Shown here in pieces: positions 24,245 through 27,743 of a stretch of DNA of 64,000 nt; the first letter of the stretch is position 1, and every line of letters starts with the position of its first letter. The stretch comes from Actinomycetota bacterium (GTDB lineage: Bacteria > Actinomycetota > Acidimicrobiia > IMCC26256 > VFJJ01). Under the pieces are notes generated by a model that worked only from the letters and a program-made list of their open reading frames with translations, did not search any database and had not been told where the DNA came from. The position numbers and the translations under genes were made by a program. The stretch lies in the NCBI GenBank assembly GCA_009886115.1, contig VFJJ01000026.1, forward strand, positions 31,536-95,535. The letters are read 5' to 3'.

Positions 24245-25540
24245 ATGGACATCATCGACGTGATCCGCACCAAGCGCGACGGCGGCACGCTCTCCGACGA
24301 GCAGATCCGGTGGTTCATCGACGCGTACACCAAGGGGATCGTGGCCGACGAGCAGGCGTCAGCTCTGCTCATGGCCATCTTCTTCCGATCGCTCACGGCG
24401 CACGAGCTGGCCACATGGACCCGGGCCATGATCGACAGCGGCGAGCGGCTCGATCTGTCGACGGTGACCCGTCCCACCGTCGACAAGCACTCCACCGGCG
24501 GCGTGGGCGACAAGGTCTCGTTGATCCTCACGCCGCTCGTGGTGGCCTGCGGTGCGGCCGTCCCCCAGCTCTCGGGCCGGGGCCTGGGCCACACCGGCGG
24601 CACGCTCGACAAGATGGAATCGATCCCCGGTTGGCAGGCGCTCTTGTCAAACGAGCGCTTCGTCGAGATCCTGCGCACCAGCGGCGCGGTGATCGCTGCG
24701 GCCGGCGCGGGTCTGGCGCCCGCCGACCGGAAGCTCTATGCGCTGCGCGACGTCACCGGCACGGTCGAGTCGATCCCGCTCATCGCCTCGTCGATCATGT
24801 CGAAGAAGATCGCCGAAGGGACCTCGGCGCTCGTGCTCGACGTGAAGTTCGGCTCGGGGGCGTTCTTCCCCGACGTGGCCCAGGCTCGGGAGCTGGCCAC
24901 CACCATGGTCGGGATCGGCAACGCCAACGGCGTCAAGACCGTGGCGTTGCTCACCGCCATGGAGACCGTCCTCGGCCGGACCGCAGGCAACGCCCTCGAG
25001 GTCACCGAGTCGATCGCCTGCCTCCGAGGCGGTGGACCGGCCGACCTGGTCGAGGTCACCCTGGCGTTGGCCCGGGAGATGCTGGCGCTCGTGGGTCTGG
25101 GCCCGCTCGACACGCCGGGTGCCGTCGATCCCGCCACGGCGCTGGCCGACGGACGGGCCTACAGGGCGTGGTGCGAGATGGTCGCCGCCCAGGGGGGCGA
25201 TCCCGACGCTCCGCTGCCGGTTGCGCCCCATCGGCACATCGTGGTCGCTCCCGGCAGCGGTGTGCTGAGCCGCCTCGATTGCCGAGCGGTGGGCATCGCA
25301 GCGTGGCGTCTCGGTGCCGGCCGGGCCCGCAAGGAGGACCCGGTGAGCGCCAGCGCCGGCATCGTTTGCCTCGCCAAGCCCGGCGACGCTGTGCGGGCCG
25401 GCGAGCCCTTGCTGGAGCTGCACGCCGACGATCCCGAGCGGTTCAGCGGTGCGCTCGCCGCGCTGGCCGACGGGGCGATCGCCGTCAGCGATGAGGCTCC
25501 GCCCGTGCCCCGGCTCGTCCTCGAACGGATCGCGTCGTGA
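24245..25540 (+). CDS. deoA: Thymidine phosphorylase
   Basis: DVIRTKRDGGTLSDEQIRWFIDAYTKG, DKHSTGGVGDKVSLILTPLV, SGRGLGHTGGTLDKMESIPG. Confidence 0.95.
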   Translation: MDIIDVIRTKRDGGTLSDEQIRWFIDAYTKGIVADEQASALLMAIFFRSLTAHELATWTRAMIDSGERLDLSTVTRPTVDKHSTGGVGDKVSLILTPLVVACGAAVPQLSGRGLGHTGGTLDKMESIPGWQALLSNERFVEILRTSGAVIAAAGAGLAPADRKLYALRDVTGTVESIPLIASSIMSKKIAEGTSALVLDVKFGSGAFFPDVAQARELATTMVGIGNANGVKTVALLTAMETVLGRTAGNALEVTESIACLRGGGPADLVEVTLALAREMLALVGLGPLDTPGAVDPATALADGRAYRAWCEMVAAQGGDPDAPLPVAPHRHIVVAPGSGVLSRLDCRAVGIAAWRLGAGRARKEDPVSASAGIVCLAKPGDAVRAGEPLLELHADDPERFSGALAALADGAIAVSDEAPPVPRLVLERIAS

Positions 25541-25593
25541 CCGGGGTCGCCCGGACTGCAACCCCCAACCCCAACCCCGACACCCCAACCCCT

Positions 25594-25646
25594 CCCAAAT
25601 TTGTGCAACGAACGTCGCCCCGCGACGCTCGTTGCACAAATTTGGG
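25594..25646. repeat. Near-perfect palindrome, 25-bp arms (1 mismatch), 3-nt loop; family member 1
   Basis: cccaaatttgtgcaacgaacgtcgc - ccc - gcgacgctcgttgcacaaatttggg. Confidence 0.97.
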
Positions 25647-25665
25647 GGCGGATCGGACGATCGCG

Positions 25666-26505
25666 GTGATCACGGCCGAGCAACGCGAGCGCTATCAGAC
25701 CGACGGGTACCTCGTGCTCGAAGGTTTCGTGACGCCCGCGGTGTGCGAGGCGCTCATGGCCCGTAGCGCCGAGCTGGTCGAGACGTTCGACCCGGCGAGC
25801 GTGCGGTCGATCTTCAGCACCCACGAACAGACCCGCACGTCCGACGAGTACTTCCTGAGCTCGGGAGACGAGATCCGCTTCTTCTTCGAGGAGAACGCCT
25901 TCGGCGCCGACGGCCAGCTCGCGCGGTCCAAGGAGCTCTCGCTCAACAAGTTGGGCCACGCCATGCACGACCTCGACCCGGTGTTCGAAGCGTTCTCGCA
26001 CACGCCCGCGCTGGCCGAGCTGGCCCGTGATCTGGGGATGCGCGACGCCCGGGTGCTCCAGTCGATGTACATCTTCAAGTCGCCCGCTCTGGGTGGCGAG
26101 GTGACGTTGCACCAGGACGCCACCTTCCTCTTTACCGATCCCATCACGGTGACGGGGTTCTGGTTCGCGTTGCAGGACGCCTCCATCGAGAACGGATGCC
26201 TGTGGGCCGTCCCGGGCGGGCATCGGCGCTTCCCCGTCCGCAAGCTCTTCAAGCGGGCACCGGGAGGCGGCACCGAGTTCGAGATCATTGATCCGGCCCC
26301 GATCCCGACCGACGGCGAGGTCGCGCTCGAGGTCCCGCAGGGCACGCTGATCGTGCTCGACGGGCAGCTTCCCCACCGTTCCGACGCCAACCGCTCGGCG
26401 CTCTCGCGTCACGCTTACTCGCTGCACGCCATCGAGGGCTGGGCCGAGTACCCCGGCTGGAACTGGCTGCACCGGCGGGATTCGATGCCCCTGCGTCCGT
26501 TCTAG
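25666..26505 (+). CDS. Phytanoyl-CoA dioxygenase (PhyH) family Fe(II)/2-oxoglutarate oxygenase
   Basis: DGYLVLEGFVTPAVCEAL, TLHQDATFLFTDPITVTGFWFALQDASIENGCLWAVPGGHRR; GTG 25666 taken as start. Confidence 0.88.
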   Translation: MITAEQRERYQTDGYLVLEGFVTPAVCEALMARSAELVETFDPASVRSIFSTHEQTRTSDEYFLSSGDEIRFFFEENAFGADGQLARSKELSLNKLGHAMHDLDPVFEAFSHTPALAELARDLGMRDARVLQSMYIFKSPALGGEVTLHQDATFLFTDPITVTGFWFALQDASIENGCLWAVPGGHRRFPVRKLFKRAPGGGTEFEIIDPAPIPTDGEVALEVPQGTLIVLDGQLPHRSDANRSALSRHAYSLHAIEGWAEYPGWNWLHRRDSMPLRPF

Positions 26506-26560
26506 CCCCAAATTTGTGCAACGAACGTCGCCTGGCGACGTTCGTTGCACAAATTTCGGG
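26506..26560. repeat. Palindrome with 23-bp perfect core arms, 1-nt loop; family member 2
   Basis: ccccaaatttgtgcaacgaacgtcgcc - t - ggcgacgttcgttgcacaaatttcgggg, directly after the PhyH stop codon. Confidence 0.97.
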
Positions 26561-26609: not shown

Positions 26610-27743
26610 ATGGCACGGACATCGAACATCGCTGGGGGACTGTCGCGGGCGGCGATCAAGCGGGCGCCCAAGGTGTTGCTGCACGATCACCTCGATGGCG
26701 GCGTCCGACCCGTCACGGTGATCGACCTGGCCTCCGAGCATGGCTACACGGGTCTGCCGACCACCGATCCCGACGATCTGGCGCTGGCGTTCACCCAGGG
26801 AGCTTCCCGCCACAGCCTCCCGCTGTACCTCGAGACCTTCACCCACACCGTGGGGGTCATGCAGCACAAGGATGCCCTCACCCGGGTGGCGGCCGAGTGC
26901 GCCGAGGATCTGGCCGAGGACGGCGTCGTCTACGCCGAGGTGCGCTTCGCTCCCGAGCTGCACATGGAGCAGGGGCTCACCCTCGACGAGGTGGTCGAGG
27001 CGGTGCTCGACGGTTTCCGGATCGGCAGCGCCGGGCGACCCATCACCATCGGAACACTCGTCACCGCGATGCGCACCGCCGCACGTTCGCACGAGATCGC
27101 CGAACTTGCCCTGCGCTGGCGCGACTTCGGTGTCGTCGGCTTCGACATCGCCGGCGAGGAGAAGGGGTACCCACCGAGCCGCCATCTCGACGCCTTCGAG
27201 CTCGTGCACCGCGAGAACTTCCACGTCACGATCCACGCCGGTGAGGCCTACGGGCTCCCGTCGATCTGGGAGGCGCTGCAGGTGTGTGGCGCCGAGCGGC
27301 TCGGCCACGGCGTGCGAATCGTCGACGACATCACCATCGGCGACGACGGTGAGGCCCGGCTGGGCCTTCTGGCCAGCTTCGTGCGCGACCGGCGCATCCC
27401 GCTCGAGCTGTGCCCCACGTCGAACGTCCACACGAGCGCCGCGGCCTCGATCGCCGAGCATCCGATCGGGCTCTTGCGCCGCTTGCGTTTCCGGGTCACC
27501 GTGAACACCGACAACCGACTGATGAGCGACGTCACGATGAGCGACGAGTTCGCCAACCTGGCCGAGGCGTTCGGGTATGGCTGGTACGACTTCGAGTGGC
27601 TGACCCTCAACGCCATGAAGAGCGCCTTCTGGCCCTTCGACCAGCGCCTGAAGATCATCGACACGGTCATCAAGCCGGGCTATGCGTCGTTGCAGCACTC
27701 CGAGGTCGGCAGCTCCGGGGGCCTCACCGTCTCGGGGCGATAG
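26610..27743 (+). CDS. add: Adenosine deaminase
   Basis: [80 protein letters not shown]. Confidence 0.94.

Follow-up and report, generated by a model that had tools for sequence, protein, structure and literature searches.

Across relatives of the bacterium analyzed here, genes for a two-domain protein with an AbiEi-like N-terminus and a VSR/DUF559-type C-terminus (AbiEi-VSR) systematically lie between two copies of a palindrome that differs from lineage to lineage. Two palindromes also surround a PhyH-family oxygenase gene in the window, i.e., the whole 64,000-nt stretch of DNA that was analyzed. These two hairpins are probably solo copies of a dispersed REP-like family that inserted independently of PhyH. 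Judged from sequence comparison, palindromes and partner gene would form a system like that of REPs and RAYTs, set up around an unrelated nuclease that would recognise, cut and mobilise the palindromes.

Two palindromes in a conserved nucleoside gene cluster

The features of the region are as follows.

24245..25540, plus strand, deoA-type pyrimidine-nucleoside phosphorylase gene, upstream of PhyH
25541..25593, plus strand, C-rich and G-poor tract between the deoA stop and palindrome copy 1 (30 C and 9 G of 53)
25597..25643, no strand assigned, palindrome copy 1, 47-nt core (66.6 bits to covariance model R1)
25666..26505, plus strand, PhyH-family oxygenase gene, native member of the nucleoside cluster (Pfam PF05721, E 2e-42; conserved neighbourhood)
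26510..26556, no strand assigned, palindrome copy 2, 47-nt core (71.8 bits to model R1)
26610..27743, plus strand, add, adenosine deaminase gene, downstream of PhyH

The original prediction of two long palindromes around a single PhyH gene was correct, and both lie where it placed them. The symmetric part of copy 1 extends over 25594-25646 (CCCAAATTT...AAATTTGGG), with one internal mismatch in the arms and a 3-nt loop; 19 bp separate it from the likely GTG start codon of PhyH (25666). Copy 2 has perfect 23-bp arms around a 1-nt loop and an extended form at 26506-26560 with one mismatch; the base after the TAG stop of PhyH (26505) is the first of the CCCC that leads into it. Folding energies are -46.9 kcal/mol for copy 1 and -44.6 kcal/mol for copy 2 (z about -9.9 and -9.6). 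Within the window the 22-nt core is found only in the four arms of these copies, where shuffled sequences would lead us to expect none. An Rfam search gave nothing beyond chance matches of microRNA models to long hairpins.

PhyH lies between deoA and add, as had been noted, but it does not break the operon. Orthologues with 48-63% identity are present in 25 other genomes of the class (probably Acidimicrobiia), and in the 20 relatives' regions that were examined PhyH adjoins genes for a nucleoside transporter, deoA, cdd or add, most often directly upstream of add. PhyH is therefore a native, conserved operon member and not a passenger. The palindrome covariance model gave no match in these 20 regions. 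Thus PhyH is kept and the palindromes are absent, rather than all three being present or absent as one block, which implies that the palindromes entered a pre-existing gene cluster.

These comparisons decide against a mobile palindrome-PhyH-palindrome cassette with PhyH as its passenger. Exactly one gene lies between the two copies, and both carry the middle segment ACGAA, which no other copy of the family has. Such a cassette is nevertheless extremely improbable, and we rejected it, because PhyH orthologues occupy the same nucleoside neighbourhood in relatives without any palindrome. The private ACGAA variant rather points to local copying or conversion, with one of the two copies probably derived from, or converted by, its neighbour. 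The other option in the original prediction, that members of a hairpin family inserted twice into the gaps of the operon, fits best with the dispersed copies described below and with the palindrome-free regions of relatives.

A dispersed palindrome family at gene 3' ends

A pattern search followed by a covariance model over the 5.45 Mb of the genome gave 105 two-strand matches, corresponding to 53 sites, with E values down to 6e-21. The suspected REP-like dispersed repeat was thereby recovered, with a safe count of about 50 copies, as at least one pair (C129/C151) is a single copy at two contig ends. The first bases of six contigs (C18, C21, C31, C124, C129 and C151) fall inside a palindrome or shortly ahead of one; the repeat therefore probably interrupts short-read assembly, and copies may have been miscounted.

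Nearly all copies are exactly 47 nt long. The outermost arm sequence is AAATTT or (A/T)TCTGT on either side, and the inner part reads GTGCA-NNNNN-CGTCGC, or GCGCGGAAATGCTCAC in a second subfamily. Changes in one arm are mostly matched by the other, i.e., they are compensatory. With gene contexts taken from a codon-bias ORF caller and not from annotation, the sites lie at gene 3' ends, as 22 are convergent, 20 tandem, 1 divergent and 10 at contig edges. Control gaps of at least 60 bp are distributed differently (33 convergent, 128 tandem and 55 divergent; chi-square p 1e-7 vs palindrome sites). Stop-side flanks are rich in C (0.60) and poor in G (0.19) compared with control 3' flanks (0.38 and 0.34). 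They hold short C-rich, G-poor tandem repeats (CCCCA, CCCTCGAA), which are less frequent in control 3' flanks; the tract at 25541-25593 in the window is a typical example.

The position at 3' ends with convergent enrichment, the C-rich stop-side flanks and the compensatory stem changes would all be expected if the palindromes were bidirectional terminators or hairpins protecting 3' ends that selection maintains; Rho would then act on the C-rich tracts, and the link to AbiEi-VSR would be secondary. We regard this as unlikely. A scan for intrinsic terminators, i.e., a GC-rich stem followed by a T-rich tail, found none at either window palindrome, and terminators need neither a shared sequence nor a fixed length of 47 nt at unrelated loci. 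Nor would terminators need to flank members of a single gene family with a matching copy at each end, and the PhyH-add pair exists in relatives without palindromes. The symmetry of the arms could also arise by template-switch repair.

With insertion of solo copies as the preferred reading, several known kinds of repeat were considered. Among 49 sites, target-site duplications of 3-9 bp showed no clear excess over shuffled flanks, and a MITE with target duplications was rejected on this ground. No autonomous transposon carrying the palindrome ends was found in the search. The Y1/RAYT transposase that had been suggested was not found in this genome either (no match to PF01797, with control genomes positive), and the GTAG/CGTC tetranucleotide tag is absent from the palindrome ends. 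DNA-uptake-type single half-sites were rejected since AATTTGTGCA occurs only inside palindromes.

An AbiEi-VSR nuclease gene between palindromes

On contig C178 of the same genome, a single gene encoding about 300 aa lies between two palindrome copies whose middles are rare and resemble each other. The same kind of gene is bracketed by a palindrome pair in genome G090, and in an Acidimicrobiales MAG it lies between palindromes of a different family. The expectation of palindromes bracketing one mobile gene thus holds for the palindrome family and fails for PhyH, as the gene in question is an AbiEi-VSR nuclease gene at another locus. In the loci that were read, the roughly 1 kb between the palindromes holds the AbiEi-VSR gene alone.

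All three proteins combine the AbiEi-like N-terminus with the VSR/DUF559-type C-terminus. AbiEi_4 (PF13338) is above the cut-off in two of them, PADLOC AbiEi models match with E down to 5e-29, and the C-terminus has weak Pfam matches to DUF559/MTES_1575. A profile of 12 AbiEi-VSR proteins matches the structures 3hrl (endonuclease-like) and 3r3p (mobile intron protein). D232, E243, H250 and D259 are invariant in the 12 proteins and form a PD-(D/E)XK-type motif, D...E.DG..WH...D; the nuclease of this genome has V in the ExDG motif where most have D. A structure model of one AbiEi-VSR protein, predicted with no alignment, was too poor to rely on (mean pLDDT 39), and one representative protein had no match in phage records. 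A second AbiEi-VSR gene in this genome (C70:2400-4510) lies between copies of another palindrome, GCTGGCAGCGCATTGGACCGCATGCGGTcc...GCTGCCAGC (locus L342).

Flank repeats across relatives

AbiEi-VSR (AbiEi/DUF559) genes are found in 213 of 395 genomes of the class, i.e., more than half. An early scan placed all full-length homologues in the loci that it covered beside a palindrome, which is a lead only as many of those loci had been chosen for a palindrome. The test set consisted of 110 loci ranked by protein similarity only, of which 105 from 74 genomes were analyzed for a repeat common to both 250-bp flanks of the gene. A shared repeat of at least 16 nt was present at 44 of the 105 loci, while none of 325 control genes and none of 2077 mispaired flanks had one; with the threshold lowered to 14 nt, the counts were 58 of 105 loci and 3 of 325 control genes. 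The controls are ordinary genes and not other mobile genes, and some of the AbiEi-VSR loci are orthologous. Three test loci were members of the query, and dropping them leaves the picture unchanged. The 44 bracketed loci represent 41 genomes and 20 families, so the bracketing is general among the relatives, and about a third of the AbiEi-VSR genes are without even a 12-nt shared repeat.

The flank repeats are strongly palindromic and lineage-specific, and their windows are strongly folded (mean z -3.1 vs -0.3 for control windows). Protein and repeat co-vary across families significantly but weakly (Mantel rho 0.11, p 5e-4). Solo palindromes occur elsewhere in at least six genomes (this genome, G090, G013, G203, G118 and the MAG) and in diverged form in G015. 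In G013, a dispersed family at convergent gene ends also brackets the AbiEi-VSR gene. Beyond the class, the Tsukamurella record NZ_LR134454.1 has three AbiEi/DUF559 genes, of which two lie between near-identical palindromes of about 63 and 41 nt (L367:21064-21954 and L365:2462-3331).

The borders of the unit are directly visible in one pair of loci from different families (L276 and L277), which resemble each other only between about -95 and +14/+26 of the gene, palindrome to palindrome. Another pair (L246 and L265) is 86% identical in the gene and about 35 bp beyond, in unrelated surroundings. At L261, L289 and L303 the AbiEi-VSR gene occupies a conserved gene neighbourhood, which indicates that units can be inherited for long times. 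At these three loci the outer stem CGAGTAAATA is kept and the inner stem differs between species; at L261 and L289 the inner stem has changed alike in both flanking copies.

The median distance from the upstream copy to the start codon is 72 bp, which would suit an operator. AbiEi antitoxins bind a pair of 23-bp inverted repeats, separated by 3 bp, that lie before their own gene and are specific to the cognate protein (PMC7319586). The window palindromes share the geometry of these published operators. AbiEi-VSR might then be a repressor acting on the palindrome at its own promoter, with the dispersed copies as its regulon, in line with the autoregulation of AbiEi antitoxins through upstream inverted repeats of the same geometry (PMC7319586). 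We consider this quite unlikely as the full explanation, given that the second copy follows the stop codon (median 20 bp), that solo copies sit at gene 3' ends and almost never in divergent promoter regions, and that the nuclease residues are conserved. Autoregulation could coexist with nuclease-driven mobility, which remains our preferred reading. Between the upstream palindrome and the AbiEi-VSR start, a TGTCACACCCC-like element recurs at six loci (L319, L326, L290, L334, L219 and L155) and is perhaps a promoter.

A putative palindrome-nuclease element

That AbiEi-VSR genes lie between matching palindromes in many actinobacteria suggests a small mobile DNA system of a type not described before. 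In the mechanism that we propose, the AbiEi-type winged-helix domain would recognise the palindrome, which has the arm and loop geometry of the published AbiEi operators. The VSR/homing-endonuclease-like domain would then nick or cut it. Both the palindrome-gene-palindrome unit and solo palindromes may spread by break repair and gene conversion, much as RAYT spreads REPs by its own chemistry. Solo palindromes, including the two around PhyH, would be by-products of a palindrome-specific nuclease living between two of its own sites. In RNA, the window copies would be strong hairpins at the 3' ends of deoA and PhyH that may attenuate transcription or protect mRNA ends as a side effect.

On balance we lean towards the view that actinobacteria carry a minimal mobile element of a new class. 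In it, the gene for a palindrome-specific nuclease would be flanked on each side by the palindrome that the enzyme recognises, and would spread both the gene and solo palindromes with no need of a Y1, DDE or recombinase-type transposase, palindrome specificity changing in concert on both sides. A literature search on DUF559/AbiEi together with palindromes, REP or mobility returned no precedent within a coverage that left out most subscription papers and is not proof of novelty.

The closest counterpart is REP/REPIN-RAYT (Y1/HUH), which likewise has short intergenic palindromes in tens of copies at the 3' ends of convergent or tandem genes, a partner gene bracketed by two copies and no target-site duplication. 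However, the partner here is a non-homologous AbiEi-VSR nuclease instead of a Y1 tyrosine transposase, of which no gene was found in this genome, and the repeat, a symmetric 47-nt palindrome, carries neither a GTAG nor a CGTC tag at its ends. VSR-like (EDxHD) homing endonucleases such as I-Bth0305I are also free-standing genes, and the C-terminal domain is related in sequence to 3r3p and 3hrl. AbiEi-VSR differs in carrying an AbiEi-type DNA-binding N-terminus and in being flanked by two whole palindromes, not one split target site. The AbiE type IV toxin-antitoxin system (AbiEi antitoxin, Rv2827c) shares the AbiEi-like N-terminus and a palindrome geometry like that of two 23-bp inverted repeats, whereas AbiEi-VSR has a VSR-like nuclease domain after the AbiEi-like part, forms a one-gene unit between two palindromes and is accompanied by palindromes dispersed at gene 3' ends. 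Palindromic MITEs are similarly small, dispersed and non-coding, but here neither a target-site duplication nor an autonomous transposon with these ends was found.

AbiEi/DUF559 genes are currently annotated as antitoxin-like or of unknown function, and the pairing with palindromes gives them a concrete, testable role. If the proposed element is real, it would provide REP-like repeats with a partner enzyme in genomes without RAYT; the missing RAYT partner of CGTC-type REPs has been noted as a gap (PMC3733652). It would also imply that arrangements of the REP/transposase kind have more than one origin, with unrelated nucleases as their starting points.

Other hairpin families

When the exact end motif was searched for as a pattern across the database, most matches came from AT-rich Clostridia, where the inner sequence is unrelated, and a few Acidimicrobiales MAGs also carried it. 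Many Clostridia MAGs contain a conserved hairpin, AAATTTGTGCAAATTAATA...TATTAATTTGCACAAATTT, which often precedes a GATACATT-like segment and is by its inner sequence unrelated to the 47-nt family (loci L051, L054, L055, L057, L061, L062, L065, L071, L074, L078 and L079). A further hairpin family, GACCAGGAGTGAGTTG...CAACTCACTCCTGGTC, is dispersed in the genome studied here, with three occurrences in 460 kb (C39:39458-39514, C193:91160-91209 and C193:106486-106538).
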